A stretch of 32,174 nt of DNA from Caldisericum exile. GTDB lineage: Bacteria > Caldisericota > Caldisericia > Caldisericales > Caldisericaceae. Positions 15,156-32,066 of this stretch are shown piece by piece (the first letter of the stretch is position 1; every line of letters starts with the position of its first letter). Where the stretch lies: NCBI GenBank assembly GCA_002877955.1, contig PNIL01000061.1:1-32174 (forward strand). Direction: 5' to 3'. The notes below the pieces were generated by a model. It did no database searches. It was not told the origin of the DNA and worked only from the letters and a program-made list of their open reading frames with translations. The translations under genes and the position numbers were made by a program.

Positions 15156-15157
15156 AT

Positions 15158-16885
15158 ATGGAACTCGATAGAAGGAAACTTTCAAATATTATAGATGTTG
15201 CAAGGAGAAGAAGAGCAGCAGATGTTTTAATTAAAAATGCAAAAATCATTAATGTATTTAACGAATCAATTGAAGAGGGGGACATTGCAATTGCAGAAGG
15301 AGTTATAGCAGGAGTCGGAAGATATGACGAGGGAAACGTAGTGTATAATGTCGACGGAGCCTTTGTTTCTCCATCGTTTATTGATTCGCACATGCACATC
15401 GAAAGTACGATGCTTATCCCTACTGAATTTGCAAAGGCAGTAGTTCCGCTTGGTACAACAACAGCTGTAGTTGATCCACATGAAATTGCAAATGTTGCGG
15501 GAATTCCAGGTATTCAGTTTATGATTAATGCTTCAAATAATGTGCCAATGGATATTTACTTTATGCTTTCAAGCTGTGTTCCTGCAACAAACCTTGAGAC
15601 TTCTGGTGCAACTCTATATGCGGAAGATCTTGCAGTGTTGAAAAACCATAAGAGAGTTTTAGGACTTGCAGAAATGATGAACTACCCAGGTGTTATAAAT
15701 AAAGACCCCGAAATACTTGATAAAATTCTTCTTTTTAGAGATGGTATAATTGACGGTCATTCTCCAACGCTTTCAGGCTATGAACTTAATGCCTATTTGT
15801 CAGCAGGTATTCTTGCAGATCACGAATGCACAACAAAAGAAGAGGCATTTGAGAAGTTATCTAAGGGTATGTGGATAATGATGCGTGAAGGATCTGTCAC
15901 AAGAGATGTGAGAAATTTGCTTCCCGTTTTAAATGACAAAACTAAACATCGATTTTTACTTTGTACTGATGATAAGCATCCGGAAGATCTAATATCAGAG
16001 GGTCATATAAATTTTGCAATAAAACTTCTTTTTGAAAGTGGAATTCCTTTACCTACTTCTATAAGACTTGCAACGCTTAATCCATCACTATTTTTTGGAT
16101 TTAGAAGAAAAGGAGGCATTGCACCTGGTTATGCCGCAGATATAGTCGTATTTGAAAATCTAAACAAAATGGATTTGGTTTTCAAGGACGGTAATTTAGT
16201 TGCAAAAGATGGAGTTCCTTTGTTTGATGTTGAGGAGCCAAAGCACGATGACGCTGTTAAAAATACTATAAATATTAAAGTCGCAACATTTGAAAAGCTT
16301 AAGGTTCCTTTGAAAGGGAAAAGAATTAGAGTAATTGGCTTACGACATGATTCAATAGTAACAGACGAGCTTGTATTCGAACCGAGAGTAGATAACGGTT
16401 TGTTAGTTTCTGATACAGAAAGAGACATCATTAAGATAGCAGTTTTTGAAAGACATAAAGCAACTGGTAAAGTCTCGGTTGGTTTTATCCATGGGCTTGG
16501 TTTAAAAAAGGGAGCTTTTGCTACCTCAATTGCACACGATTCTCATAATATTATTGTTGCAGGAGAAAATGATAAAGACATGCTTCTTTCAGTAAGTCAA
16601 CTTGAGGCAATGGGTGGCGGTATTTCAATTGCAAAAGACGGAGTTGTCATTGATTATTTGGCACTTCCCTATGGTGGACTTATGACCAATCGATCGGTGT
16701 ATGAGGTTGCAGAGGTCTTAAAAAGGCTTCACAAAGTTGCTCACGAGGAACTCGGAGTATCTTATCCTGATCCTTTTATGGCGCTTGCATTTATGCACCT
16801 TGCAGTAATCCCCAAACTTAAAATTACTGATTCAGGTCTTGTCGATGTTGAAAAGTTCAGTTTTGTTGATCTATTCGTTGAGTAA
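15158..16885 (+). CDS. adeC: Adenine deaminase
   Basis: A 575-residue enzyme of the Ade/AdeC family converting adenine to hypoxanthine and ammonia. Metal-binding His78-x-His80 with Glu82 (IDSHMHIESTM) is followed by PLGTTTAVVDPHEIANVAG, MMNYPGVI, DGHSP, DHECTT and CTDDKHP, in the order seen in known adenine deaminases. The C-terminal domain (about 380-575) ends in the LGVSYPDPFMALAFMHL segment typical of the family. A TTG at 15140 would add six residues but has no ribosome binding site. The ATG at 15158 has GGAGG at 15142-15146, 11 bases away, which is rather long. It lies 2 bases after the ssnA-like stop and is probably co-transcribed. Confidence 0.95.
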   Translation: MELDRRKLSNIIDVARRRRAADVLIKNAKIINVFNESIEEGDIAIAEGVIAGVGRYDEGNVVYNVDGAFVSPSFIDSHMHIESTMLIPTEFAKAVVPLGTTTAVVDPHEIANVAGIPGIQFMINASNNVPMDIYFMLSSCVPATNLETSGATLYAEDLAVLKNHKRVLGLAEMMNYPGVINKDPEILDKILLFRDGIIDGHSPTLSGYELNAYLSAGILADHECTTKEEAFEKLSKGMWIMMREGSVTRDVRNLLPVLNDKTKHRFLLCTDDKHPEDLISEGHINFAIKLLFESGIPLPTSIRLATLNPSLFFGFRRKGGIAPGYAADIVVFENLNKMDLVFKDGNLVAKDGVPLFDVEEPKHDDAVKNTINIKVATFEKLKVPLKGKRIRVIGLRHDSIVTDELVFEPRVDNGLLVSDTERDIIKIAVFERHKATGKVSVGFIHGLGLKKGAFATSIAHDSHNIIVAGENDKDMLLSVSQLEAMGGGISIAKDGVVIDYLALPYGGLMTNRSVYEVAEVLKRLHKVAHEELGVSYPDPFMALAFMHLAVIPKLKITDSGLVDVEKFSFVDLFVE

Positions 16886-16895
16886 GGAGGGCAAA

Positions 16896-18272
16896 TTGCT
16901 TTTAAAAAACGCAAATATTATTGCAAATGGTAATAATCTGAAAAAAGTTAATATTTTAGTTGAAAATAAAAAAATCAAAGAAATTTTTGAAGGCAATATT
17001 CCTTACGGCATAGAGGATAAAGAAATAATAGATTGTAGCAATTATATTGTATTTCCTGGATTTATTGATGCTCATGTTCATTTTGATGATCCTGGTTATA
17101 CTGATAGAGAGGATTTCTTTACTGGTACACAAAGTGCTGCAAAAGGTGGAGTTACAACAATTGTAGACATGCCTTGTACATCAGTTCCTGAAGTGATCTC
17201 AAAGGAAAATCTTCACTACAAACTTGATATTGTTTCAAAAAAGGCTATTGTAGATTTTGCTTTTTGGGGTGGAGTAACTCCTATTCAGATTCAAACTGGT
17301 GAATACAAAAAGACTATAAAAGAATTGAAAGAAGAGGGTGTTGTAGGACTAAAACTCTATACGATATCTGGAATGAAGACTTATCCGAAAGTTAATACTG
17401 AGGAAATGGCAGCTGTTTTTGATTACATAAGAGACCTTGGACTCGTTGCGGGAATTCATGCTGAAGATTTTGAACTTGTTGATTACTTTTCAAAAAGAGA
17501 GCAAAATTTGAATCATATTTATCCCTTGGCATGGACAAAAGGTAGAAACTATGAAGCTGAAGCAGTTGCTATTTTAAGAAGTATTGCCCTCGCGAAAGAG
17601 TTTAAAAATAAGGTTCATATAGTTCATCTTTCTACAAAACTTGGCCTTATGATAATCGAAATGGCAAAAAATGAGGGTATTAATATTACAACTGAGACTT
17701 GCCCTCATTATCTTGTTTTTAATGAGAATGACCTTGAAAGAATTGGTCCAATTCTCAAAACTGCACCTCCAGTTCGAAGAAGAGAGGATTCAGAATATCT
17801 TTGGGATGGGCTTAAAAAAGGAAGTGTTGATTTTGTAACAACAGATCATGCAGGGGGTGTTTATCCACAAGAAAAAAATAAACAAAGTATTTGGGATAAT
17901 TATGCTGGTATCCCGGGTGTTCAAACCCGATTTAACGTTTTATTTACATATGGTTATTCAACTGGACGCCTTACCCTTGAGGATTTAAGGAAAGTGTTGT
18001 CTGAAAAACCTGCCGAAAGATTTGGACTCAAAAGCAAAGGTAAAATTGAAATCGGGAATGATGCGGATTTTGTTATTGTAAATCCATATGGTGAATTTAA
18101 ATTTAATGCAAGCAAAGATCTTCTTTGCAAAAACAAGTATTCTCCTTTTGATGGATTTACGTTTAAAGGGGAGATTGAAAAAACTATTGTTAGAGGGCAA
18201 ATTGTTTACGAGAAAGATAAAGGTATAACAGTAAATGGAGGTTTTGGAAAATTTGTAAAAAGCGAATATTAG
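16896..18272 (+). CDS. Allantoinase/hydantoinase-like cyclic amidohydrolase
   Basis: A 458-residue cyclic amidohydrolase with the two-metal, carboxylated-lysine site: His60-x-His62 (DAHVHFDDPG), Lys153 (GLKLYTIS), His188 (GIHAED), His244 (VHLSTKLG) and Asp317 (TTDHAGG). The AAKGGVTTIVDMP segment and the final KYSPFDGF-x-FKGEIEKTIVRG match allantoinase (AllB) better than dihydroorotase. Substrates of this group include allantoin, hydantoins, dihydropyrimidines and possibly purine ring-opening intermediates. Here the substrate is undetermined. The start is TTG at 16896, with AAGGAGGG (16884-16891) five bases upstream. Start codons further upstream would overlap adeC without a ribosome binding site. 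It is the last gene before a strong bidirectional terminator. Confidence 0.8.
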   Translation: MLLKNANIIANGNNLKKVNILVENKKIKEIFEGNIPYGIEDKEIIDCSNYIVFPGFIDAHVHFDDPGYTDREDFFTGTQSAAKGGVTTIVDMPCTSVPEVISKENLHYKLDIVSKKAIVDFAFWGGVTPIQIQTGEYKKTIKELKEEGVVGLKLYTISGMKTYPKVNTEEMAAVFDYIRDLGLVAGIHAEDFELVDYFSKREQNLNHIYPLAWTKGRNYEAEAVAILRSIALAKEFKNKVHIVHLSTKLGLMIIEMAKNEGINITTETCPHYLVFNENDLERIGPILKTAPPVRRREDSEYLWDGLKKGSVDFVTTDHAGGVYPQEKNKQSIWDNYAGIPGVQTRFNVLFTYGYSTGRLTLEDLRKVLSEKPAERFGLKSKGKIEIGNDADFVIVNPYGEFKFNASKDLLCKNKYSPFDGFTFKGEIEKTIVRGQIVYEKDKGITVNGGFGKFVKSEY

Positions 18273-18294
18273 GTATTCTAAACTTATTTATTTA

Positions 18295-18328
18295 AAAAGA
18301 GGGGTGAAACACCCCTCTTTTATTTTTC
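18295..18328. terminator. Bidirectional intrinsic terminator
   Basis: A 12-bp stem (AAAAGAGGGGTG at 18295-18306 with its complement at 18310-18321) closes an AAA loop. A T-rich tract follows on the plus strand (TTTTATTTTT, from 18318). On the minus strand the tail is TTTTTAAATAAAT. It serves both the amidohydrolase operon and the convergent ABC transporter operon, and it overlaps the permease stop codon at 18320-18322. Confidence 0.92.
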
Positions 18329-19240
18329 TCCTTTTATGAACGGTTCACCAAGAGATTTTGGTGCACCAAGATGTTTTCTCATTACTTCTCTTGCTGTTAT
18401 AATAAGCACTATAATTGTTACAAAATATGGTGTCATTTTAAGTATTGGAACAGGAATACCAAGTGGTTGTAAAATGTATTGTAAAACATCTACACCACCA
18501 AATAGATATGCGCCAAGAATTGCACGAAGAGGGTCCCACTGAGCAAAAATTGTAAGCGCAATTACAATCCATCCTCGTCCTCCAGTCATTCCTTCAATCC
18601 ACGACGGCATATACGCAAGTGTTAAGTATGCACCTGCAAAACCAGCAAAGCAACCACCAATAAAAGTAGAAAGATATCTTACAAGAGAGACATTTATGCC
18701 CAAAGCATCAGATGCTTTAGGGTTTTCACCAACTGATCTTATAATAATCCCCCATCTTGTTTTAAAAAGGATAAACCATGATACTACTGCAAGAATGATA
18801 CCTATGTAAAATAAGGGATCTCTATTGAATAATATTGGGCCAATGAATGGTATTTTTGAAAGTCCAGGAATTGCTACTTCAGAAAACCTTACTGAAAGTG
18901 GTGCTCCAATATAGCTTTTGCCTAACATACCAGCAAGTCCAATGCCTATCATTGCAATTGCAAGTCCTGAGAGTGTTTGTATTCCACGTATTGTAATCGA
19001 AACAAATGCATGCAAGAGCGAAAGAATTCCTCCTGATAGGATTGCCGCAATCAAGCCCAAAGTTGGATTTTTAGTTATATATGTTACGCTAAATCCTATA
19101 ATCGCTCCCAAAGCCATCATTCCTTCTATACCCAAGTTTAAAATGCCAGATCTTTCTGTAATTATTTCGCCTATTGTGCCCAAAAGAAGGGGAGTTCCTG
19201 CAACCATTGTTCTTTGAAGAATTGATATAATTAAATCCAT
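18320..19240 (-). CDS. BMP-type nucleoside/purine ABC transporter permease (NupQ/YufQ-like)
   Basis: A 306-residue polytopic membrane protein, very hydrophobic throughout, of the branched-chain permease fold used by nucleoside importers. The opening TPLLLGTIGEIITERSGILNLGIEGMM is the family hallmark. The central SVGENPKASDALGINVSLVR loop is the coupling region facing the ATPase. It pairs with the permease encoded just upstream to form the transmembrane channel. AAGGTGAT precedes the ATG, which lies 4 bases after the upstream permease stop. Last gene of the operon. Confidence 0.92.
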   Translation of the reverse strand: MDLIISILQRTMVAGTPLLLGTIGEIITERSGILNLGIEGMMALGAIIGFSVTYITKNPTLGLIAAILSGGILSLLHAFVSITIRGIQTLSGLAIAMIGIGLAGMLGKSYIGAPLSVRFSEVAIPGLSKIPFIGPILFNRDPLFYIGIILAVVSWFILFKTRWGIIIRSVGENPKASDALGINVSLVRYLSTFIGGCFAGFAGAYLTLAYMPSWIEGMTGGRGWIVIALTIFAQWDPLRAILGAYLFGGVDVLQYILQPLGIPVPILKMTPYFVTIIVLIITAREVMRKHLGAPKSLGEPFIKGEK

Positions 19241-19244
19241 AGCA

Positions 19245-20312
19245 TCACCTTCTTATCTTTATTTTATATTCTGTAAAGAAATTACCCACCATGACAAAAA
19301 TTAGGATTAAGCCGTTAAATGCGTTTATAGTTGAAAATGGAAAGCCAAGTGAAGTTTGGATTACATCGCCGCCTACTAAAATACCTCCAAAAAAGACTGC
19401 TGAGACAATTGCAAGAATTGGATTCAGTTGAGCAAGCCATGCAACTATAATTGCAGTGTATCCATATCCAGAGGAAATCTGAGCAGGATAAGTAAGATGC
19501 CTATGAATTCCTGCAACTTCTCCTACTCCTGCAATTCCTGCAAGTCCTCCTGAAATTAGCATCATAATTATAGTTATTTTAACAAAATCGATTCCAGAAT
19601 ACCGCGCAGCGTGAGGATTTTCGCCAGTAACTTTTATTTCATAACCATATTTGGTTTTTTCAATAAATAAATAGATCAATACTGCTGATAATAAAGCAAT
19701 TATCAAAGTAATATAGCTTATTCTTGTCCCTGGAATCTGGGCTAAGGTTGCACTTTGTGGAAAATTGTCTGTATATGGAAAACCATACTGTGTTTTACCT
19801 TTCCAAGGGCCATATACAAGATATTCTACAAAATCTTCTGCAATGTAATTCAGCATAAGTGTGGAAATAATTTCATTGATTCCTAACTTGACTTTAAGTA
19901 GTGCAGGAATTAAACCAAATAGCGCACCACCCAAAAAACCCACCAAAAACATAATAGTTATTGTTGAAATTGATGAATGATAAGGACCAAAGTTTAATGC
20001 AATCCATGTTGCAAAAGTTGCCCCAACCAATAACTGTCCATTTGCGCCTATATTCCAAAATTTGCCTTTAAATGCTACAATTAAACCTTCTGTTATAAGA
20101 AGCAGTGGGATTGCTTTAGCTATTGTTTCTTTTAAACCAAAAGGCGAACCAAATGACCCTTGAAAGATCTTAGAGAATGCATAAAAAGGGTTAATACCAC
20201 GCAATAAAAAAATAAAACTTGATAAAATTACAGCTACAAAGATGGAGATGAGATAAACAGAAGTATAGTACTTTTTTGAGACATAACCCCTCTTTTCAAT
20301 TGAGATGTGCAT
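19245..20312 (-). CDS. BMP-type nucleoside/purine ABC transporter permease (NupP/YufP-like)
   Basis: A 355-residue polytopic membrane protein and partner of the neighbouring permease. After a short cytoplasmic N-terminus (about 18 residues) there is a long first membrane segment. FKGKFWNIGANGQLLVGA and the VTGENPHAARYSGIDF coupling loop are typical of the family. Its ATG lies inside the end of the ATPase gene (17-base overlap) behind AGGAGGAG, indicating coupled translation. Together with the ATPase and binding lipoprotein it forms a full importer. Confidence 0.92.
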   Translation of the reverse strand: MHISIEKRGYVSKKYYTSVYLISIFVAVILSSFIFLLRGINPFYAFSKIFQGSFGSPFGLKETIAKAIPLLLITEGLIVAFKGKFWNIGANGQLLVGATFATWIALNFGPYHSSISTITIMFLVGFLGGALFGLIPALLKVKLGINEIISTLMLNYIAEDFVEYLVYGPWKGKTQYGFPYTDNFPQSATLAQIPGTRISYITLIIALLSAVLIYLFIEKTKYGYEIKVTGENPHAARYSGIDFVKITIIMMLISGGLAGIAGVGEVAGIHRHLTYPAQISSGYGYTAIIVAWLAQLNPILAIVSAVFFGGILVGGDVIQTSLGFPFSTINAFNGLILIFVMVGNFFTEYKIKIRR

Positions 20313-21849
20313 TATTCTCCTCCTGTTTCCTTAGGGATCCAGCCATCATTAAACCAATTTCTTCAATTGAAACTTTCTTTGGATCAACTATACCCATAAA
20401 TTCTCCCATAAACATCACTGCAACTCTGTCACTTAGTTGAAGTATTTCCTCTAAATCTTCTGAGACAAGAAGTATTGCAGAACCTTCTTTCCTCTTCTTT
20501 AACAATAGTTTTCTTATATATTCAGTTGCAGCGATATCAAGGCCATAAGTTGGGTGTGCGGCAACAATAAAATTAGACTTTGTTGTAGTCTCTCTTGCAA
20601 GGATTAATTTTTGTATATTTCCTCCCGATAAAAGTTTTGTTTTTGTCTCTATCGACGGTGTTGCAATTGAAAAATCTTTCACCAGTTTAATTGTAAAATC
20701 TTTAATTGTTTTGTAATTTAAAAATCCTCTGTTAGAAAATGGCTCTTTATAGTAGTCTCTAAGCACGGCGTTTTCGTAAACTGGAAAATTTGGTACTATT
20801 CCATACTTTATCCTTTCCTCAGGAATGTGAGCAACACCCATTTCTCCTATTTCTCGTGCACCTCTGTTTTGTATCTCCTTATTATTAATAATTACCTTCC
20901 CTTTTTCTACTCTCCTTAGTCCAGTAAGTGCTTCTACTAATTCCTTTTGTCCATTTCCGGAAACACCGGCTATACCGAGAATTTCTCCCTTTCTTATTTC
21001 AAAAGATAAATTTTTTACAGCCTTTATGCCTTTGTCACTTAGAACATCAATATTTTCAACTTTAACTACAACTTCACCTGGTTCAACCTTTTCCTTTTCC
21101 AAATTGAATATAATTTCTCTACCAACCATCATTTTTGCTAACTCTTCTTTTGTTGCATCCTTTGTCGTTGTGGTTCCAATAACTTTTCCTTGCCTTAAGA
21201 CTGTTACAATTCCACCTAATTCATAAACCTCTTCAAGTTTGTGAGTTATAAAAATGACTGAATGTCCATTAGCAACGAGTTTTTTAACTGTTTTAAAAAG
21301 TTCAGTTGCTTCTTGTGGTGTAAGTACTGAGGTAGGTTCATCAAGGATAAGCAATTTTGCTCCACGCATTAGTGCTTTTAAGATTTCAACCCTTTGTTGT
21401 TCTCCTGCTGAAAGCTGCCATATTTTTGCATCTGGATTTACATGTAAACCAATTTCGTTACTGTACCTCTCTATTTCTTTTGCAATATCTTCTGTTGGAT
21501 TTAGAAATTTAGTTCTATTAAGTCCAAGCGCTACATTTTCAGCAACTGAGTGATTTTCTACAAGCATGAAATGCTGGTGAACCATACCGATTCCATAATT
21601 CATTGCAGTTCGAGGAGAGTCAATAAAAACTTTCCTTCCGTTTATAAATATTTCTCCATCATCAGGTTGGTAGATGCCATAGATTATATTCATAAGTGTT
21701 GTTTTTCCCGCACCATTTTCTCCTAAAAGGGCATGAATTTCACCTGCATTGATTTTTAAAGAGATTTTATTGTTTGCTACAACTCCTGGAAATTCTTTGT
21801 AGATGTCCTTTAATTCAAGCGATTTGAATTCGATATTGTCTAATTCCAA
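20296..21849 (-). CDS. Double-domain ABC transporter ATPase (NupO/YufO-like)
   Basis: A 517-residue ATPase with two fused nucleotide-binding domains that powers the BMP-type importer. Domain 1 has an intact Walker A GENGAGKTT (43-51), signature LSAGEQQRVEIL and Walker B LLILDEPTSVLT. Domain 2 has a degenerate Walker A (GVSGNGQKELVEAL, lacking the Gly-Lys-Ser/Thr) and the LSGGNIQKLILARE signature. Its Walker B ends in His (FIVAAHPTYGLD) where a Gln or Glu is usual. The asymmetric pattern is normal for sugar/nucleoside ATPases such as RbsA. The start is TTG with GAGGTG five bases upstream. The gene lies 70 bases after the binding-protein gene, separated by a GC-rich hairpin. Confidence 0.93.
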   Translation of the reverse strand: MELDNIEFKSLELKDIYKEFPGVVANNKISLKINAGEIHALLGENGAGKTTLMNIIYGIYQPDDGEIFINGRKVFIDSPRTAMNYGIGMVHQHFMLVENHSVAENVALGLNRTKFLNPTEDIAKEIERYSNEIGLHVNPDAKIWQLSAGEQQRVEILKALMRGAKLLILDEPTSVLTPQEATELFKTVKKLVANGHSVIFITHKLEEVYELGGIVTVLRQGKVIGTTTTKDATKEELAKMMVGREIIFNLEKEKVEPGEVVVKVENIDVLSDKGIKAVKNLSFEIRKGEILGIAGVSGNGQKELVEALTGLRRVEKGKVIINNKEIQNRGAREIGEMGVAHIPEERIKYGIVPNFPVYENAVLRDYYKEPFSNRGFLNYKTIKDFTIKLVKDFSIATPSIETKTKLLSGGNIQKLILARETTTKSNFIVAAHPTYGLDIAATEYIRKLLLKKRKEGSAILLVSEDLEEILQLSDRVAVMFMGEFMGIVDPKKVSIEEIGLMMAGSLRKQEENNAHLN

Positions 21850-21876
21850 GGTTTCACCTCACTTAATTTAATTGAA

Positions 21877-21894
21877 GGGGGGATTTAACCCCCC
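21877..21894 (-). other. Intercistronic hairpin between binding protein and ATPase genes
   Basis: Six consecutive G (21877-21882) and six C (21889-21894) flank a six-base loop. Flanking TTAATTT and AAATTAA can extend the stem through an internal loop. In the minus-strand direction no U-run follows, so it is unlikely to be a full terminator. It is better explained as a stabiliser of the upstream binding-protein mRNA or a partial attenuator, giving more lipoprotein than ATPase. Confidence 0.75.
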
Positions 21895-21919
21895 TAAATT
21901 AACTTCTTTAATTGTTTTT

Positions 21920-23122
21920 TTATTTTGGAATTTCTCCAACTACATTGTCAACAAACCAATTAATATTCCACAATAAATCGTGAGAAGCCCTTTCTCCTGG
22001 TTTTAATCTCAATGTTCCTTTTTGATCATAGATTGGACCTGTAAACGGATCAAAGAGAACTGTTGGTTCACTCATTTGTTCTTCTCTCTTCATAACAAGA
22101 TCGTATATGCTAATTTTTCCAAGGATTGGATCGTTTACAAATTTTGCTTTAAGTGCATCAACAAACTTTGGATTAATTGGAGTATTAAAGTCTGCTCCAA
22201 GTTTGCAAGCGCCTTCTTTCATAAGCCACCAGTAGTCCTGGTTAGTCCAAGTATTTGTGTATACTCTTCTTATAATGTCTTCATAGATTGGTTCCCAATC
22301 TGCAAGCTGCCCAGAAACTACTGTATCGGGTCCATATTGTAACATAGGGCTATAGTGAGAAAATGTATAGATCTGCTGTCCTTTCTTTGTATGTTCTTCG
22401 CCAACATCGATCACAGCAGTAGAATCTTCTGTGAACGCTAAGGCATCAACTCCATCAGATATCAGAGATTCTGCTGCTTCTTTTGCCTTTGCAGGGTCAT
22501 ACCAAGAGAATAGCCATCTTACATAGACTTTTGCCTTTGGATTGGCTTCTTTTACACCAATTGCAAATGCGTTAATGTGTCTTATAACTTCGGGAATTGG
22601 ATGAGCTGCAACATATCCAATTTTATTAGTTTTTGTAAGAGCGCCAGCCATTAAACCTGTAAGATAATAAGCTTGGTAAAGTTCAGAGAAATAAGTGCCA
22701 AGATTGGTATCCCTCTTGTAGCCAGAGCAATGTTCAAAAATAACATTTGGATACTTTTTTGCTGCTTCAGCTGTTGCGTCCATAAATCCGAAACTTGTTG
22801 TGAATACAATGTTGCATTTTTCTTCGTTAACTAACCTGTCGATGTAACGACCAGCATCAGTTTCTGGAACTGATTCAATGTAGACTGTTTTAAGCCATGG
22901 GAATTTTTGTTCGAGTTGCTTTCTTGCTACATCATGTGCATTAGTCCAACCATAATCACCCGTAGGTCCTACATAAATAAATCCTGCTTTAATAGTTTTT
23001 TCTTGAGCTTGTGGTTGGGATGTTGTTTGGGAAGGTTGTTGCGGCGAACATGAGACAGAAGTAAATACAAGCATTAATAAAACTAATGCTACTAATAATG
23101 TTTTTAATTTGTTTTTTAGCAT
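21920..23122 (-). CDS. BMP family (PnrA-like) substrate-binding lipoprotein
   Basis: A 400-residue extracytoplasmic binding protein for a nucleoside or purine-base importer. An N-terminal Lys-rich stretch and hydrophobic core (residues 1-20) lead to Ser-Val-Ser-Cys25, a lipobox with an unusual residue at -3. A Ser/Gln/Pro-rich linker precedes the folded domain. The body begins KAGFIYVGPTGDYGWTNAHD, typical of the BMP subgroup. Later segments include NIVFTTSFGFMDA, KIGYVAAHPIPEVIRHINAF and the ligand-side region around ALAFTEDST. The ligand is not fixed by sequence; adenine, guanosine or inosine are plausible given adenine deaminase nearby. The ribosome binding site AAAGGAGGTGA is near-perfect. 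It is the first and probably the most highly expressed gene of the operon. Confidence 0.92.
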   Translation of the reverse strand: MLKNKLKTLLVALVLLMLVFTSVSCSPQQPSQTTSQPQAQEKTIKAGFIYVGPTGDYGWTNAHDVARKQLEQKFPWLKTVYIESVPETDAGRYIDRLVNEEKCNIVFTTSFGFMDATAEAAKKYPNVIFEHCSGYKRDTNLGTYFSELYQAYYLTGLMAGALTKTNKIGYVAAHPIPEVIRHINAFAIGVKEANPKAKVYVRWLFSWYDPAKAKEAAESLISDGVDALAFTEDSTAVIDVGEEHTKKGQQIYTFSHYSPMLQYGPDTVVSGQLADWEPIYEDIIRRVYTNTWTNQDYWWLMKEGACKLGADFNTPINPKFVDALKAKFVNDPILGKISIYDLVMKREEQMSEPTVLFDPFTGPIYDQKGTLRLKPGERASHDLLWNINWFVDNVVGEIPK

Positions 23123-25080: not shown

Positions 25081-25109
25081 TTGCAAAATATTACTTTTAT
25101 AGTTATAAT
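25081..25109 (+). promoter_or_regulatory. Promoter of the DUF438/Fe-S operon
   Basis: TTGCAA (25081-25086), 17 bp, then perfect TATAAT (25104-25109). The start site would be near 25116, leaving only about a dozen bases before the ATG at 25128. It is divergent from the rpsU promoter. Confidence 0.7.
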
Positions 25110-25127: not shown

Positions 25128-26366
25128 ATGAGCGAATTTATACAAAACAATTTAAGTAGAGTTGAAAGACTAAATTTAATGAGAAAGCTTCTTATCGACA
25201 TGGATAAAGGACTAATTTCTCCTGCGGAAGTGAAGGAGCGTTTCAAGAAGATTTTGGAAAATGTTCATCCGGCTGAAATTGCAATAATTGAAAACATTCT
25301 TATAGTTCAGGATCATTTTCCACAAGAAAAAATTCATCGACTTTGCGACGTGCATATCGACATTTTTAGAGAATCACTTGAAAGTCAAGAAATTAATGTT
25401 CAAAAAAGCCATCCCTTATACCTTTTGTATGATGAACATAAAAAAATATCTGAAATTTTGGGAATGGTGATGAAAATTGCATCAAGCATTGAGAATAACA
25501 AAAATGTTGATGCGGTTACAAAAATTCTTGAAGAGAATTTACCTGTCTTTGATAGCTTATTTGATATTGAAAATCATATGGTTAGGGAAGAAAATGCCTT
25601 ATTTCCCTTTTTAGAGAAGCATGATGTAGTTCAGCCGCCTCAAATTTTATGGAACGAACATGATTCGCTACGAGCAAGACTTAAAGATTTGAGAGGATAT
25701 CTAAATAAGGCTTCAAATCTTAATAATCAAGAAATCGATGAATTACCAAATCTACTCAAATATATTGTAGATCTTAAAACTTCCCACATTTACAAAGAGA
25801 ACAAAATACTTTTTCCAACTGCACTTGATAAACTTGAGGAGGCGGAGTGGGATAAGGTTTGGGAGGGGATGAACGAGATTGGATATGCAAAATATACAGA
25901 TTTAAGTTTAGTGAAGGAAACAGGGAAAATTTACAAAAAGAAAGAAATTTTAGAAGATAGATATATATATCTTGAATCGGGTAAATTTACACTTGATGAG
26001 TTAAATGCTCTTTTTGAGACTTTACCTATTGAAATCACATTCATAAATAAGGATGATATAGTACAATTTTTTAACAGGGGTGAAAAAAGAGTATTTGTAA
26101 GAACAAAGACGGTTTTAGGACGCACTGTTCAAAATTGCCATCCGCCAAAGAGCGTCCACATAGTAAACAAAATTTTGGAAGACTTTAAAAGTGGCAAAAG
26201 AAATGTTGCTGAGTTTTGGATAAATATGCAAGGGAGATTAATATATATTAGGTACTTTGCAGTTCGTGATTCTTTAGGAAACTATCTTGGAACTTTGGAA
26301 GTAACACAAGATGTTACAGATATTAAAAAGTTAGAAGGAGAAAAAAGAATTTACTCAGAAGAGTAG
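25128..26366 (+). CDS. DUF438 - hemerythrin - PAS domain protein
   Basis: A 412-residue cytoplasmic protein with three parts. Residues about 5-75 match DUF438 (MRKLLIDMDKG, FKKILENVHPAEI). Residues about 95-235 form a hemerythrin-like four-helix domain with the full iron-ligand set His104, His150-x3-Glu154, His178 and His220-x3-Glu224, expected to bind a di-iron centre and O2 or NO. Residues about 290-405 are a PAS domain with GRTVQNCHPPKSV (Cys337-His338), a motif typical of PAS domains in this family. No output domain follows, so it is a sensor or regulator working through a partner. The ATG at 25128 is chosen for its GGTGA; a GTG at 25116 would sit at the transcription start. It is followed 10 bases later by Fe-S assembly genes, suggesting an oxygen or redox link. 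Confidence 0.88.
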   Translation: MSEFIQNNLSRVERLNLMRKLLIDMDKGLISPAEVKERFKKILENVHPAEIAIIENILIVQDHFPQEKIHRLCDVHIDIFRESLESQEINVQKSHPLYLLYDEHKKISEILGMVMKIASSIENNKNVDAVTKILEENLPVFDSLFDIENHMVREENALFPFLEKHDVVQPPQILWNEHDSLRARLKDLRGYLNKASNLNNQEIDELPNLLKYIVDLKTSHIYKENKILFPTALDKLEEAEWDKVWEGMNEIGYAKYTDLSLVKETGKIYKKKEILEDRYIYLESGKFTLDELNALFETLPIEITFINKDDIVQFFNRGEKRVFVRTKTVLGRTVQNCHPPKSVHIVNKILEDFKSGKRNVAEFWINMQGRLIYIRYFAVRDSLGNYLGTLEVTQDVTDIKKLEGEKRIYSEE

Positions 26367-26376
26367 GGAGGAAAAA

Positions 26377-26682
26377 ATGGTTTCAAAAGAAGAAATTATT
26401 AATGCATTAAAAAATGTTTATGACCCAGAAATACCGATTAACATTGTTGATCTTGGCCTTATCTACAAACTTGATGTGGATGAAGAAAATGGGATTGTGA
26501 AAATTTTAATGACTTTAACTGCACCTGGGTGTCCCATGGGAAATTATATAGTTAATGACGTTGAAATGGTTTTAAGGTCTCTTGATGGCGTAAAAGATGT
26601 TCAAATTGAGCTTACCTACGATCCGCCGTGGTCACCCGATATGATGAGTGAAGAGGCGAAGAAGGAGCTGGGCTATTTATGA
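26377..26682 (+). CDS. MIP18/DUF59 family Fe-S assembly protein (SufT-like)
   Basis: A 101-residue DUF59 domain protein. NVYDPEIPINIVDLGLIY (DPE at 16-18) and TAPGCPMG with the conserved Cys52 are the family hallmarks, followed by the final V-x-V-x-L-T-Y-x-P-P-W-x-P-D-M-M-S-E tail seen in SufT and PaaD-like members. The family helps deliver or mature Fe-S clusters. Good GGGAGG five bases before the ATG. It lies 10 bases after the hemerythrin-PAS gene and overlaps the desulfurase gene by 4 bases. Confidence 0.92.
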   Translation: MVSKEEIINALKNVYDPEIPINIVDLGLIYKLDVDEENGIVKILMTLTAPGCPMGNYIVNDVEMVLRSLDGVKDVQIELTYDPPWSPDMMSEEAKKELGYL

Positions 26683-27827
26683 TTTATTTTGATAGTGCAA
26701 GTTCTACAAAACCCGATCCAGAAGTATTGCATGAAATGTGCGAGTTTGCGAGTGATTATTATGCAATACCTTCTTCTATTTTTTCTCATACATTAGGATT
26801 ACAAGTCGCTGATAAAATTCAAGAGGCAAGAGATTTTATAGGAAACAAATTAGGTGTTAAGGGAAGTGAAATTATCTTTACTTCCTCCGGAACTGAAGCA
26901 AACAATTTAGCAATTAAAGGCTATGTTTTTGCTAACAGGAATAAAGGAAAGCACATAATAACCTCAAAAATTGAGCATATCTCTGTTTTAGAAACTGTAA
27001 AAAAGCTTTTGAGAGATGGTTATGAGATTTCTTATATAGGAGTCGATAAGGACGGTTTCATAGATATAGATGAATTAAAAAAATCCATAAGGGATGATAC
27101 TATTCTGGTTACTATACAGCTTGCAAATCACGAGGTTGGTACAGTTCAAAATATCGAAGAAATCGCCAAGATCTCTAAAGAAAAAGGAATTACTGTACAT
27201 GTTGATGGTGCTATTGCTATTCCGTATATAAATTTGAAATTGGATAATATTGATATGCTCACTATTTCTCCTCATAAGTTTTATGGTCCAAAAGGTGTTG
27301 GAATATTATATGTTAAAGAAGGTTTGAAGCTTGAAAAAATATTAGACGGTGGATATAACGAATTTAATTTAAGGGCTGGTCATGAAAATACTCCTGCGAT
27401 TGTTGGCGCAAAAAAAGCGTTTGAAATTTGGGATAGCAGTATATCGGAGTATTTAAGGAACTTGAAAATGTATCTATATGATAAATTATTAAGTGAAATA
27501 CCTGATGTTATGCTTAATGGAAGTCTTAATAAATCTTTGCCGCACATACTTAATGTTACCTTCAAATATATTGAAGGTGAATCAATTGCTTTAAGGCTTG
27601 ATTTTGAAGGTATTTCAGTAACGACAGGATCTGCCTGTTATAGCAGAAACTTACAGGCAAGTCATGTTCTCCTTGCGATGGGAAAATCACACGAAGATTC
27701 TCATGGTTCAATACGATTCTCATTGTCCAAGTATAATTCTAAAGAAGAAATTGATTATACAGTTTCAAAACTTAAAGAAATTGTAGAAGATTTGAGAAGA
27801 ATAAGTCCACTTTTAGGAGGTGAGTAA
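26679..27827 (+). CDS. Cysteine desulfurase (NifS/IscS family, divergent)
   Basis: A 382-residue fold-type I PLP enzyme that removes sulfur from cysteine as an enzyme-bound persulfide. PLP Lys200 (SPHKFYGPKG), stacking His100 (KIEH), Asp176 and active Cys320 (TTGSACYSRN) are in place, with the following loop as in IscS/NifS group I. Two usually invariant spots differ. The Gln three residues after the PLP Asp is Ile179 (VDGAIA), and the GGGQE-x2-R-x-G-T stretch reads GGYNEFNLRAGH. It is probably active but may have altered partner or cofactor binding. The ATG overlaps the DUF59 stop (ATGA). It supplies sulfur to the IscU-like protein and perhaps to the ubiquitin-like carrier encoded downstream. 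Confidence 0.9.
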   Translation: MIYFDSASSTKPDPEVLHEMCEFASDYYAIPSSIFSHTLGLQVADKIQEARDFIGNKLGVKGSEIIFTSSGTEANNLAIKGYVFANRNKGKHIITSKIEHISVLETVKKLLRDGYEISYIGVDKDGFIDIDELKKSIRDDTILVTIQLANHEVGTVQNIEEIAKISKEKGITVHVDGAIAIPYINLKLDNIDMLTISPHKFYGPKGVGILYVKEGLKLEKILDGGYNEFNLRAGHENTPAIVGAKKAFEIWDSSISEYLRNLKMYLYDKLLSEIPDVMLNGSLNKSLPHILNVTFKYIEGESIALRLDFEGISVTTGSACYSRNLQASHVLLAMGKSHEDSHGSIRFSLSKYNSKEEIDYTVSKLKEIVEDLRRISPLLGGE

Positions 27828-27828
27828 T

Positions 27829-28464
27829 ATGCCAATTCCATATACTAAGTTGGTTATAGAACATTTTAAAAATCCACATAACGTTGGTGAAATACAAGAT
27901 GCTGATGTGAAAGTAACTGAGGGAAGCCCGGCCTGTGGTGATATGATAACTCTCTATCTTAAGATCGATCCAAAAACACGCAAAATTGTTGATGTAAAGT
28001 TTAAGTCATACGGATGTGCTTCAAACATTGCAACTGCTTCAATTATTACAGATTTGGTTAAAGGAAAGACTGTTGAGGAGGCAAAAAATATTACATGGAA
28101 AGATGCTGCGGAGGCTTTGGGTGGTCTTCCTCCTGTTAAGGTTCACTGTTCTGTTCTTGCGGCAGATGCATTGCATTCTGCTGTTGAACTCTACCTTGAG
28201 AAAAACGGTTTAACTAAAGAACATGAACCTACTACTGTTGATAAAGTGTATGAGCGTTTGTCTCATGTTATGAATCCTGAAACAGGTATTGATATTGTTA
28301 AATCAAAGATTGTAAAATCTGTTGTCGTAAATTCTCACGTAGTTGAAATCGTTCTTAATATTCCTGAAACTTTTCAATTTGGAGAAAATATAAAAGAAGA
28401 AATATTAGAAAGACTTCAGTATCTTTGGGATGTAAAAGAGGTTAAAATATTGTTTAAGGAGTAA
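27829..28464 (+). CDS. IscU/NifU-type scaffold fused to a DUF59-like domain
   Basis: A 211-residue protein. Residues 1-128 are a Fe-S scaffold with Cys36, Asp38, Cys63, His106 and Cys107, matching the IscU ligand set at nearly the same numbering (ACGDM, YGCASN, VHCSVLA). Residues about 135-211 (VDKVYERLSHVMNPETGIDIV, then VVEIVLNIP) resemble the MIP18/DUF59 fold but lack its TAPGCP cysteine. NifU proteins normally carry a CxxC Nfu domain instead. The scaffold would assemble [2Fe-2S] clusters with sulfur from the adjacent desulfurase, and the extra domain may act in transfer. The start is the ATG at 27829, eight bases after AGGAGG; the in-frame GTG at 27820 sits on the ribosome binding site. 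Confidence 0.88.
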   Translation: MPIPYTKLVIEHFKNPHNVGEIQDADVKVTEGSPACGDMITLYLKIDPKTRKIVDVKFKSYGCASNIATASIITDLVKGKTVEEAKNITWKDAAEALGGLPPVKVHCSVLAADALHSAVELYLEKNGLTKEHEPTTVDKVYERLSHVMNPETGIDIVKSKIVKSVVVNSHVVEIVLNIPETFQFGENIKEEILERLQYLWDVKEVKILFKE

Positions 28465-28468
28465 AAGT

Positions 28469-28693
28469 ATGAATGTAAAAGTCAAACTCTACGGAGATTA
28501 TTTAAAATATGGTCCAGAAGAAACATACATTGATATTGAAGAAGGCTCAACAGTGGAAGATGTTTTGAATAGATTTGGCATAAAGGAAAGAAAATATATT
28601 ATAGTCCTTGTTAATCTTAAAAGAGCATGGTTTGAGGACAAGTTAAACGATGGAGATGTGGTAAGCGTGTTCTCACCTGTTGGAGGTGGCTAA
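28469..28693 (+). CDS. Ubiquitin-like sulfur carrier (MoaD/ThiS family)
   Basis: A 74-residue beta-grasp protein ending Pro-Val-Gly-Gly-Gly. The free C-terminal diglycine is the site adenylated by an E1-like enzyme and converted to thiocarboxylate. The body (VKVKLYGDYLKYGPEETYIDI, EGSTVEDVL, LNDGDVVSVFSP) fits MoaD/ThiS. The sulfur acceptor could be molybdopterin/tungstopterin, thiazole or another product. No moaE, moaA or thi genes are in the window. AAGGAG is 7 bases upstream. The glycine codons also form the ribosome binding site of the next gene. Confidence 0.9.
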   Translation: MNVKVKLYGDYLKYGPEETYIDIEEGSTVEDVLNRFGIKERKYIIVLVNLKRAWFEDKLNDGDVVSVFSPVGGG

Positions 28694-28867
28694 ATGGTTC
28701 AAGACCCAGTTTGTAAAATGATTATGGAGAAAATCGAAGCACTTACAAGAGTTGAATATAATGGTGAGATTTATTATTTCTGTTCAGAAGATTGCAAAGA
28801 GCAGTTTCTGAAGAATCCAGAGAAGTATCTTATTAAACCCAAAAAACCTGAAAATTCGGGGTGTTAG
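28694..28867 (+). CDS. YHS domain metal-binding protein (57 aa)
   Basis: A 57-residue protein starting MVQDPVCKM, with a later YYFCSEDCKEQFLKNPEKY. This is the YHS (TRASH-like) pattern: Asp-Pro-Val-Cys-x-Met, then Tyr-Phe-Cys-Ser-x2-Cys-x3-Phe and Asn-Pro-x-Lys-Tyr. Cys7, Cys30 and Cys34 are candidate metal ligands, and Cys57 is the final residue. YHS domains occur in copper and other heavy-metal proteins and in some monooxygenases. Its ATG directly follows the carrier's TAA, with GGAGGTGG (28682-28689) upstream. Its TAG directly precedes the next ATG. The zero-base spacing on both sides implies co-production with the sulfur carrier and its E1. Confidence 0.88.
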   Translation: MVQDPVCKMIMEKIEALTRVEYNGEIYYFCSEDCKEQFLKNPEKYLIKPKKPENSGC

Positions 28868-29629
28868 ATGTTATCAAAAGATGAATTAGAAAGATATGAT
28901 AGACAAATACGTATTGATAAAATAGGAATAGAAGGTCAAATAAAATTAAAGAATTCAAACGTTTTAGTTATCGGAGCTGGCGGCTTAGGAAGTCCTATTC
29001 TTCTTTATCTTGCATCTGCAGGTGTTGGTAGGATTGGTATTGTAGATGGTGATGTAGTTTCCGTTGGAAATCTAAATAGGCAAATTCTTTATAATATTGA
29101 CGATATAGGGAAAGCGAAAGTACTAGTTGCAAAAGAAAAAATAGAGAAATTAAATCCTAATATTGCAGTGGAAGCTTACAACACTTGGCTTACAGAGGAA
29201 GAGACTGCGAGAATAATTTTAAGAAAATTCACAGCTATAATAGATGCAACTGATAATTATGAAACAAGATATTTAATAAATAGAGTGGCAGTTCATTTAA
29301 ATAGGCCTTTATTTATTGGGGCTGTTGGGCGTTTCGTTGGTCAAGTAATGGTTGTAATACCACATGAGACAGCTTGTTTAAACTGTATCTTTCCAGAAAG
29401 AGAAAAACAAATTCTTTTTAAATTAACCGAAGAAAATAGGAATCAAGGTATTATTGGAACTACAGTTGGAGTAACAGGAACAATTGTGGCAAATGAGTTT
29501 TTAAAATATACTTTAGGCATCGGTTCCTTACTTAAAAATAAGCTTCTAATATTTGATGGTTTAACTAATGAATTTTCGATAATTAGTTTAGAAAGAGATC
29601 CAAATTGTAAAATTTGTAGTATAATTTGA
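28868..29629 (+). CDS. E1-like adenylyltransferase (ThiF/MoeB family)
   Basis: A 253-residue enzyme that adenylates the C-terminal glycine of a MoaD/ThiS-type carrier. It shows the ATP loop GAGGLGSPI, catalytic RQILYN, DATDNYETRYLIN and zinc-binding CLNC and CKIC pairs (near residues 175 and 248). The active-site loop usually holding a cysteine (as Cys-Ala-Glu-Gly/Ala-Gly) reads NQGIIGTTVGVTG without it, so thiocarboxylate formation may use a persulfide relay from the desulfurase rather than a ThiF-type disulfide. The start directly follows the YHS stop. The rubrerythrin promoter lies in its last codons. Confidence 0.92.
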   Translation: MLSKDELERYDRQIRIDKIGIEGQIKLKNSNVLVIGAGGLGSPILLYLASAGVGRIGIVDGDVVSVGNLNRQILYNIDDIGKAKVLVAKEKIEKLNPNIAVEAYNTWLTEEETARIILRKFTAIIDATDNYETRYLINRVAVHLNRPLFIGAVGRFVGQVMVVIPHETACLNCIFPEREKQILFKLTEENRNQGIIGTTVGVTGTIVANEFLKYTLGIGSLLKNKLLIFDGLTNEFSIISLERDPNCKICSII

Positions 29630-29642
29630 TAGTATCTATAAT
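29614..29642 (+). promoter_or_regulatory. Promoter of the rubrerythrin operon
   Basis: TTGTAG (29614-29619), 17 bp, then TATAAT (29637-29642), just before AAAGGAGGAG of the rubrerythrin gene. The -35 lies in the final codons of the E1-like gene. A second TATAAT at 29620-29625 has no good -35. No palindromic PerR-type operator is obvious. Confidence 0.55.
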
Positions 29643-29664
29643 TATTTGAAAGGAGGAGATTAAA

Positions 29665-30168
29665 ATGAGACAAATGACGGAAAAAAGTTTAAGAGAAGCA
29701 TTTGCGGGTGAATCTCAAGCTCACATGAAGTACTTAATTTTTGCAGAACAAGCTGAGAAAGAAGGATTACATGATGTAGCAAGACTTTTCAGGGCGATTT
29801 CGTTTGCAGAACAAGTTCATGCTACCAATCACTTTAAAGCCTTAATGGAGCTTAAGAAAACTTCTGAAAATCTTCAATCGGCTTGGGGTGGAGAGAATTT
29901 TGAGGTTGAAGAAATGTATCCTGCTTACAATGCGATAGCAACTTTGCAGGACGAGAAAGATGCTCTTAGGTCAATTCATTTTGCTTTATCAGCCGAAAAA
30001 ATACATAGAGAACTCTACGCAGAAACTAAAGAAAAATTAGACAAAGGTGAGGAAGTCAAATTTGATAAGATTTATATTTGTCCTGTTTGTGGTTATACAG
30101 TAATTGGTGAAGCACCAGAGCAGTGCCCGATTTGTGGAGCACCAAAGAGTGCTTTCAAAGAATTTTAA
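29665..30168 (+). CDS. rbr: Rubrerythrin
   Basis: A 167-residue peroxide-scavenging protein of anaerobes. Residues 1-130 form a ferritin-like four-helix bundle with the di-iron Glu/His residues ([33 protein letters not shown]). The C-terminus is a rubredoxin-like Fe(Cys)4 domain (ICPVCGY and CPICGAP). It reduces H2O2 to water with electrons from rubredoxin. The ribosome binding site AAAGGAGGAG is strong. It is first in an operon with its presumed electron donors. Confidence 0.96.
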
Positions 30169-30181
30169 TAAGGAGGCAAAA

Positions 30182-30340
30182 ATGAAAAAGTACAAATGCA
30201 TGGTTTGTGGGTATGTTTATGATCCAGCAGAAGGCGATGACACCCAGGATATCCCTCCTGGAACACCCTTTGAGGACTTGCCAGAAGACTGGACTTGTCC
30301 AGTTTGTGGAGCTACAAAAGACCAGTTTGAGGAGATTTAA
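30182..30340 (+). CDS. Rubredoxin
   Basis: A 52-residue one-electron carrier with Fe(Cys)4 ligands Cys6-x2-Cys9 (KCMVCGY) and Cys39-x2-Cys42 (CPVCGA), plus the acidic and proline-rich middle normal for rubredoxins. The ATG at 30182 follows AAGGAGG. A longer reading frame from 30104 would overlap the rubrerythrin gene and is not supported. It probably carries electrons from the flavoprotein at 30852 to rubrerythrin. Confidence 0.97.
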
Positions 30341-30342
30341 AC

Positions 30343-30834
30343 ATGGATGATGTTTTGGAAATTTTGAAAGCTGCAATGGAAGTTGAACTCGATGGCATAA
30401 ATTTGTATAAAACTGCAGCTGAAAAAACAGAGGATAGACAAGCAAAAGAAGTTTTTCTTTTCCTTGCACAGGAAGAAGGCAAACACTATAGATATTTAAA
30501 AGAATTACACGATGCAATAAAGAACAAGACTAATTTTGATGTAAATAGCATTCCTAAGCCAAGCTTGACTTTTAAAAGAATTTTTTCTGAGGATTTCTTA
30601 AACAATCTGAAAGGTAAAAATTACGAATTTTCTGCAATCTCTACGGGAATGATATTGGAGAAAAATTCAATTCTGTTCTATAAGGAGCAAGCAGAGAAAG
30701 CCCACGATCCAAAGGTAAAATACCTATTTGAAGAACTTATGAAGTGGGAAGAAGAGCATCTAAATATGCTTACTAATGAATATAACGATTTAAAAGAAAG
30801 ATTTTGGCAGGTAAATGATTTTTCGCCATTTTAA
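30343..30834 (+). CDS. Ferritin-like (rubrerythrin-family) di-iron protein without rubredoxin domain
   Basis: A 163-residue four-helix protein. Glu15, Glu45-x2-His48, Glu106 and Glu136-x2-His139 are positioned as di-iron ligands in two Glu/Glu-x2-His pairs, the rubrerythrin/ferritin-like arrangement. It lacks the C-terminal Cys4 domain. It may act as a second peroxidase or oxidase fed by the neighbouring rubredoxin, or in iron handling. The start ATG lies 2 bases after the rubredoxin stop, with GAGGAG in the last rubredoxin codons. Confidence 0.88.
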   Translation: MDDVLEILKAAMEVELDGINLYKTAAEKTEDRQAKEVFLFLAQEEGKHYRYLKELHDAIKNKTNFDVNSIPKPSLTFKRIFSEDFLNNLKGKNYEFSAISTGMILEKNSILFYKEQAEKAHDPKVKYLFEELMKWEEEHLNMLTNEYNDLKERFWQVNDFSPF

Positions 30835-30851
30835 ATTGGTAGGTGAAAGAT

Positions 30852-32066
30852 ATGATATACGCTATTATTGGTTTAGGGGTTGCAGGCGTTACAGCTGCTA
30901 AGATTATAAGACAATTAGATCCCAAGGGAGAAATTCATATTTTTTCGGACGAGCCCACCCTTTACTATCCTAGACCTAAATTGTTTGAGGTTATAAGAGA
31001 GGAAATAAAGGCTAGAGATTTATATTTCTATGATTCAATGTGGTATGAAGAAAGAGATATAAAGCTTCACCTTGGTGTAAAGATTAGAAAAATTGATCCT
31101 AAGGAGCATCTATTATATCTGGATATGGGAGGCAGTGTTGCATATGATAAACTTTTGATTGCAAATGGGGCTTCTTCCTTTGTACCACCTATTGATGGAG
31201 TTTATACAGAAGGCGTATTTACTTTGAGAAATCTAAATGATGCATTTAAAATTAGAAGACATTCTTTTCTTATAGGTAACGGAAAACCGACTGCTGTTAT
31301 TGGTGGTGGTGTTTTAGGATTAGAAGCGGCATACTCATTTCTAAAAAATAAACTCAAGCCTGTTGTTGTCGAGGGCGCTCCTTATCTTCTACCAAGGCAG
31401 CTAGATGAGGAAGGTTCAAAAATTCTAAAAGGTATATTAATGAGTTGGGGAATAGGTGTTTTGGAAAATGCAAAAGTAGAAAGAATTGAGGGAAATACAA
31501 ATGTAGAAAAAGTTGTTTTGGCCGATGGCACGGTTGTTCCGGCAGAAATGGTTCTTTTATCTACAGGTATTCGTCCTAATACTTCACTTTTAGAACTTTC
31601 TAAGTTGCCATTTAATAGAGGTGCTATTGTCGATTCTTATATGCAGGTTGCAGAAGACATTTTTGCTGCCGGGGATATAGCGGAGTTTAATGGAACTATT
31701 TATGGAATAATTCCTCCGGCAATAGAACAAGCAACAATTGCTGCAACAAACATGGTTAAAGATAGATCATTAGAGTATAAAGGCTCTGTTCCATCTAATA
31801 CTTTGAAGGTTGTTGGACTTGATTTGACTTCTGTTGGTCTTGTAAATCCTAAGGAAGATGGTTATGAAGTTATACGAGCAAGTGACGAGTCGTCTCATAA
31901 ATATAGAAAGATTGTACTTAAAGATAATAAGGTTGTAGGAATAATTATACTTGGTATTAAGGAAGCAAATATAGCAAACAAACTTGTTAACAAAAAGGTG
32001 GATGTCACCCAATATAAGGATAAATTAGGTGATATTAATTTCTCTCTCAAAGAAATTAGTGCCTAA
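30852..32066 (+). CDS. FAD-dependent NAD(P)H oxidoreductase (NADH:rubredoxin reductase-like)
   Basis: A 404-residue flavoprotein of the pyridine nucleotide-disulfide reductase fold. The N-terminal GLGVAG (7-12) binds FAD, AVIGGGVLGLEAAY (near 150-163) binds NAD(P)H, and AAGDIAEF is the second FAD contact. There is no redox-active Cys pair, as in NADH:rubredoxin reductases and the reductase part of NirB. Placement after rubredoxin supports electron transfer from NADH to rubredoxin. The ATG at 30852 has AGGTGA five bases upstream, preferred over the GTG at 30843 that overlaps this site. Substrate pairing is inferred. Confidence 0.88.
   Translation: MIYAIIGLGVAGVTAAKIIRQLDPKGEIHIFSDEPTLYYPRPKLFEVIREEIKARDLYFYDSMWYEERDIKLHLGVKIRKIDPKEHLLYLDMGGSVAYDKLLIANGASSFVPPIDGVYTEGVFTLRNLNDAFKIRRHSFLIGNGKPTAVIGGGVLGLEAAYSFLKNKLKPVVVEGAPYLLPRQLDEEGSKILKGILMSWGIGVLENAKVERIEGNTNVEKVVLADGTVVPAEMVLLSTGIRPNTSLLELSKLPFNRGAIVDSYMQVAEDIFAAGDIAEFNGTIYGIIPPAIEQATIAATNMVKDRSLEYKGSVPSNTLKVVGLDLTSVGLVNPKEDGYEVIRASDESSHKYRKIVLKDNKVVGIIILGIKEANIANKLVNKKVDVTQYKDKLGDINFSLKEISA

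Follow-up and report, generated by a model that had tools for sequence, protein, structure and literature searches.

An operon-like unit of Caldisericum groups a DUF438-hemerythrin-PAS protein with genes of cysteine-sulfur supply and oxygen defence

Why would a heat-loving anaerobe place its only recognisable cysteine-sulfur enzymes in one cluster with a di-iron protein of a putative repair type and a set of oxygen-detoxifying genes? This is the arrangement found in Caldisericum, and the di-iron protein concerned, here called Hr-PAS, belongs to the DUF438-hemerythrin-PAS proteins, which occur widely among anaerobes, both bacterial and archaeal, and are largely without an assigned function; our literature searches returned no title on the function of the DUF438 family and no paper joining DUF438, hemerythrin and PAS. 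An original prediction, made on the window (the whole stretch of 32,174 nucleotides of Caldisericum exile DNA analysed here, from a genome that is 55% complete), had read seven of these genes as a possible oxygen- or NO-responsive sulfur-trafficking unit, with Hr-PAS as its sensor and one desulfurase serving both Fe-S assembly and a thiocarboxylate carrier.

The unit is real, operon-like, genus-specific and built from known families. All seven predicted open reading frames are present at the coordinates given, with the identities proposed for them, each backed by Pfam/NCBIfam, and four further genes follow on the same strand:

25081-25109, plus strand: promoter-like element, TTGCAA-17-TATAAT, kept in 4 Caldisericum genomes shortly before the start codon
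25128-26366, plus strand: Hr-PAS, with DUF438, a hemerythrin domain with a six-ligand di-iron set, and PAS_10 (ORF, Pfam, alignment)
26377-26682, plus strand: stand-alone DUF59/SufT-like protein with conserved Cys (TAPGCP) (Pfam, NCBIfam)
26679-27827, plus strand: NifS/IscS cysteine desulfurase (Pfam, NCBIfam)
27829-28464, plus strand: IscU scaffold (three Cys, Asp, LPPVKxHC) with a Cys-less DUF59 domain (Pfam, alignment, model, hhalign)
28469-28693, plus strand: MoaD/ThiS-like sulfur carrier, C-terminal VGGG (Pfam, NCBIfam)
28694-28867, plus strand: YHS-domain protein, terminal SGC (Pfam)
28868-29629, plus strand: ThiF/MoeB-type E1 (Pfam, NCBIfam)
29665-30168, plus strand: rubrerythrin (ORF, Pfam, NCBIfam)
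30182-30340, plus strand: rubredoxin-like protein (sequence read directly, [19 protein letters not shown])
30343-30834, plus strand: ferritin-like/rubrerythrin-fold di-iron protein (ORF, Pfam)
30843-32066, plus strand: FAD/NAD(P) oxidoreductase with a rubredoxin-reductase C-terminal domain (ORF, Pfam, NCBIfam)

The tight coupling claimed for the seven genes is evident from their spacing: Hr-PAS and DUF59 are separated by 10 bases, DUF59 and IscS overlap by 4, IscU follows IscS after 1 base from its start at 27829, which is the start used by its relatives (a start at 27820 would give an 8-base overlap), and the remaining gaps measure 4 (IscU/MoaD), 0 (MoaD/YHS) and 0 bases (YHS/E1). The limit originally set at 29629 proved too short. 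Rubrerythrin begins 35 bases after E1, the rubredoxin, ferritin-like and rubredoxin-reductase-like genes follow after 13, 2 and 8 bases, respectively, and the terminator scan returned no plus-strand terminator between E1 and the downstream genes. The unit very likely runs through these four genes, spanning 25128-32066 with a largest gap of 35 bases, and the whole is presumably co-transcribed. At its upstream end, 25128 is the likely start of Hr-PAS, because the conserved promoter-like element ending at 25109 and a GGTGA-type ribosome site precede the ATG. Since promoter-like matches in the region are no commoner than in shuffles (33 vs 30.3), the weight given to this element rests on its conservation. 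No convincing regulatory palindrome was seen by eye in the conserved upstream region, and the window gave no match to Rfam families or in a tRNA scan. The YHS protein (28694-28867) carries its C-terminal cysteine in an SGC motif conserved in 4/4 Caldisericum genomes. Elsewhere in the window (13830-23122), amidohydrolase-type genes (13830-18272) face the genes (18320-23122) for an ABC transporter of nucleoside type and a BMP-type lipoprotein, an arrangement that, read by eye, resembles nucleobase salvage.

The seven-gene order is kept in all three other Caldisericum genomes covering it, namely G009 (a single contig of 1,558,103 bases), G011 and G012 (on two contigs), and the flanking gene order is likewise kept in all three. 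Genus-level order alone is weak evidence, because synteny in the genus extends to the flanking genes; the arrangement is not a product of chance, because the order is shared with three other genomes and the promoter-like element is conserved in all four. The conservation that a gene-neighbourhood survey was to test holds within the genus and nowhere beyond it in the genomes surveyed, and this arrangement of known parts appears limited to Caldisericum. In G009, the operon's downstream part contains an inserted transposase-like gene of 556 residues (L053:5588-7258), whose protein recurs at L198:14315-15985.

Confinement of the order to one genus, in which flanking order is equally kept, would also be expected if compaction of a small genome had brought unrelated stress and housekeeping genes under one promoter, leaving Hr-PAS uncoupled from sulfur transfer. 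We regard this reading as rather unlikely in view of how the same genes are distributed elsewhere. Sister genera hold the order SufS-SufU-DUF59-IscS-IscU59-MoaD, in some followed by CysE, CysK and E1, without Hr-PAS in the locus. Hr-PAS lies directly before a DUF59 gene of its own (8-11 bases) at a separate locus in G006, G007, G015 and G016, and the adjacency is kept in four genera. In three genera besides Caldisericum the pair forms a locus of its own, and no IscU was detectable in two of these. Family searches found no IscU/SufU in G006, G015 and G016 (the last 99%-complete), all of which retain a SufB-like protein. At the G007 locus, an E1 gene and a gene of MoaD-like type also lie behind one for a transporter. 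Because they occur separately elsewhere, Hr-PAS plus DUF59 and DUF59-IscS-IscU59-MoaD(-E1) can be seen as two modules joined in the operon.

Outside the phylum, the link between Hr-PAS and Fe-S assembly reappears with other partners. Among the 80 best-matching Hr-PAS loci in genomes, 75 belong to other phyla, bacterial and archaeal, and at none of these 75 does the seven-gene set occur. An IscU gene is present at 10/75, against 0.66 expected (P 2e-9) from genome size, IscU copy number and length searched, on the assumption of random gene placement and for best-matching loci only; as shared descent makes the loci non-independent, P is about 6e-6 if they are counted as ~7 lineages. Nine of the ten IscU genes lie on the Hr-PAS strand. 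The closest same-strand neighbours (n=77) include flavodiiron-type (ODP) proteins (14), low-molecular-weight phosphatase/arsenate-reductase-like proteins (8), rubrerythrin (5), rubredoxin (5), flavin reductase (5), Rrf2 (4) and desulfoferrodoxin (3). The excess of IscU near Hr-PAS in other phyla, far above expectation, and the repeated Hr-PAS/DUF59 pairing argue against compaction. In distant bacteria, Nfu-type (NifU C-terminal) proteins adjoin or closely follow Hr-PAS (L156:6729-6953, L157:4734-4955); DUF59-like matches beside Hr-PAS in these two loci were rejected, being on inspection the Nfu-type proteins.

The Hr-PAS protein itself combines DUF438 (E=1e-14), Hemerythrin (1.6e-18) and PAS_10 (1.4e-28) Pfam matches in one chain, with no output domain. 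The predicted full di-iron ligand set is borne out by the family alignment, in which all nine relatives keep H104, H150, E154, H178, H220 and E224, the last five (H150 onward) aligning directly with the ligands of YtfE, the nearest characterised hemerythrin relative. We keep Hr-PAS out of the RIC family because two marks of that family were tested and both point away from it: the N-terminal ScdA_N/DUF542 domain with its Cys is absent, Pfam giving DUF438 there, and the NCBIfam RIC model scores 36.5 bits, below its cut-off of 204.7. By sequence, it is of the same family as 3CAX (E 3e-88) and 2QKP (E 3e-31). The AlphaFold model is of modest confidence (pLDDT 75, pTM 0.53); its PAS fold resembles sensor domains, with weaker fold matches to heme-PAS domains that, given this modest confidence, we do not count as evidence for heme. 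Among homologues, Ddes_1165, a hemerythrin plus PAS protein, is induced by NO and has been proposed as a YtfE equivalent, while DVU2590 of D. vulgaris reportedly does not respond to oxidative stress (PMC5701242).

These properties bear on the sensor role. An O2/NO sensor controlling Fe-S versus thiocarboxylate sulfur flow through contact with DUF59, IscS or IscU would suit the di-iron plus PAS architecture, the first place of Hr-PAS in the operon, its adjacency to DUF59 in four genera and the sensor-like PAS fold. However, the protein has no output domain and turns up in other genera and phyla where IscU, or a carrier or E1 close by, is missing, and we judge such control decidedly unlikely. 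The sensor of sulfur traffic, as originally proposed, fares poorly also because Hr-PAS pairs with DUF59 even in the IscU-less G016 and its neighbours elsewhere are O2/ROS/NO-detoxification and Fe-S assembly genes. A related view, in which Hr-PAS and DUF59 form an undescribed O2/NO-responsive module acting on IscS-IscU-DUF59 by iron donation or gating and so setting the share of sulfur passed to clusters and to carriers, seems to us very unlikely. We favour a YtfE-like protein of Fe-S protection or repair over a regulatory sensor, because Hr-PAS has no output domain, YtfE is its nearest characterised relative, a homologue is induced by NO, and its neighbours belong to Fe-S assembly and detoxification.

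The stand-alone DUF59 protein matches FeS_assembly_P (77.3 bits, Pfam), has an invariant C52 in the alignment and scores 128 against the SUF_assoc model (cut-off 143); owing to low supports in the tree of this short protein, Hr-linked and Isc-linked ancestries are not separated. IscS carries the PLP-lysine and catalytic-Cys loop motifs (SPHKFYGPKG, GSACYS) and matches the NifS model with E 1.7e-125, yet below the NCBIfam cut-off. The scaffold is an IscU, as predicted, with invariant C35, D37, C62 and C106, an LPPVK motif and a fold match to IscU; it is not a plain scaffold, since a C-terminal DUF59 domain without the Cys of active DUF59 proteins is fused to it after residue ~135 (FeS_assembly_P 38.3 bits, Pfam; E 6.9e-6 when its profile is compared with that of the stand-alone DUF59 by hhalign), and the model has high confidence over its whole length (pLDDT 91). 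Within the phylum Caldisericota this fusion is found in the three families closest to the window; outside the phylum, 12 of ~237 genomes from other groups of bacteria have it (L217-L228), and there its usual neighbour is the gene for an IscS or for a regulator of Rrf2 type; no description of an IscU with a Cys-less DUF59 was found in the literature searched. G009 also encodes a second IscU-like gene (L204:8131-8487), which is degenerate and without the first active-site Cys region. A Caldisericum SufB/SufC pair (L202:5498-7200), consisting of SufC and a short SufB-like protein (317 residues), resembles the minimal SMS system (PMC12192291).

The genome content speaks to the proposed sharing of one desulfurase. 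Among class-V aminotransferases, the operon IscS is the only strong match of cysteine-desulfurase type found in G009, G011 and G012 (245-264 bits), the next family member scoring 92-97 bits (97 in G009) and being, where checked, a glyoxylate-type aminotransferase; likewise, searches of Caldisericum genomes gave no full-length ThiF/MoeB protein other than the operon E1. Because a single recognisable cysteine desulfurase and a single E1 are encoded, both of them in the operon, one desulfurase probably feeds both the Fe-S and thiocarboxylate routes, as predicted. The idea is not new: in Thermus thermophilus, one E1 (TtuC) with a cysteine desulfurase serves TtuB, MoaD and ThiS (PMC3980101), which provides a precedent. 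The customers of the sulfur carriers are likely to be MoaD/MoaE and TtuA, encoded outside the operon. The genus holds a MoaD-MoaE pair, further MoaD-like genes and a TtuA relative, whose best model is tRNA-5-methyluridine(54) 2-sulfurtransferase (253 bits, below the cut-off of 450) and which adjoins a gene read by eye as TrmI-like, a reading that no NCBIfam model confirmed. TtuA was not found in G012, nor was it detected in other Caldisericaceae genera retaining MoaD/E1, where it is therefore an unlikely carrier partner.

In sister genera (L057, L060, L061), CysE and CysK genes after MoaD suggest that the carrier is connected with cysteine synthesis. The MoaD/E1 pair could, on this pattern of orthologous genes, act as a CysO-like thiocarboxylate donor for cysteine synthesis instead of tRNA thiolation, which we consider quite unlikely in Caldisericum, where the operon adjoins no CysE/CysK, the CysK relatives match best O-acetylserine-type enzymes, and both TtuA and MoaE are encoded.

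Taken together, we lean, with somewhat better than even confidence, towards a genus-specific operon of about eleven genes that would serve as the cysteine-sulfur hub of the cell and protect its Fe-S clusters, with Hr-PAS in a YtfE/RIC-like role. IscS would take sulfur from cysteine and pass it to IscU-DUF59 for cluster assembly, with the SufT-like DUF59 aiding target maturation, and also to carriers adenylated by the only E1; the MoaD-like carrier of the operon probably donates to TtuA in tRNA thiolation, in the manner of TtuB, and the MoaE-linked MoaD would supply molybdopterin. The di-iron centre of Hr-PAS may trap or react with O2, NO or iron and help to keep or repair Fe-S clusters, its PAS acting as a module for interaction or for a cofactor. 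Removal of peroxide would fall to rubrerythrin, rubredoxin and the reductase, and the ferritin-like protein may take up iron that has been freed. Most informative is the cross-phylum linkage of DUF438-hemerythrin-PAS proteins to Fe-S assembly and oxygen-defence genes, combined with a genome content of a single desulfurase and a single E1. The linkage to IscU and flavodiiron/rubrerythrin genes gives these proteins a testable role in Fe-S protection, and one recognisable desulfurase and one E1 in one operon offer a simple case of sulfur sharing among Fe-S clusters, Moco and tRNA.

Within the literature searched, no described system has the exact seven-gene composition, in agreement with the original prediction, and several resemble parts of it. 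YtfE/RIC proteins (ScdA, DnrN) share with Hr-PAS the hemerythrin-like domain with its H, HxxxE, H, HxxxE pattern and the linkage to Fe-S biology, whereas Hr-PAS has DUF438 in place of the Cys-bearing N-terminal domain, plus an extra PAS_10. Described DUF438-hemerythrin-PAS proteins include P. furiosus PF0695 (3CAX), S. mutans SMU_1151c (2QKP, PAS part) and Desulfovibrio Ddes_1165/DVU2590; no desulfurase, scaffold, carrier or E1 is reported to accompany these described examples, in contrast to Caldisericum Hr-PAS. The operon DUF59 resembles SufT, a DUF59 Fe-S maturation factor (PMC4982691), in standing alone, carrying a conserved Cys and adjoining Fe-S assembly genes, but is partnered by IscS-IscU and Hr-PAS instead of SufBC. 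The IscS and IscU pair recalls the minimal ISC system (MIS) and A. fulgidus IscS-IscU, and the closest solved structures by sequence or fold are 4eb5 and 4r5f; here, however, IscU bears a Cys-less DUF59, and DUF59, MoaD, YHS and E1 share the operon. Finally, T. thermophilus TtuA/TtuB/TtuC with IscS or SufS offers the same sole E1, desulfurase-dependent carrier and TtuA in one genome, while in Caldisericum the carrier, only putatively TtuB-like, and its E1 sit within the Fe-S operon.
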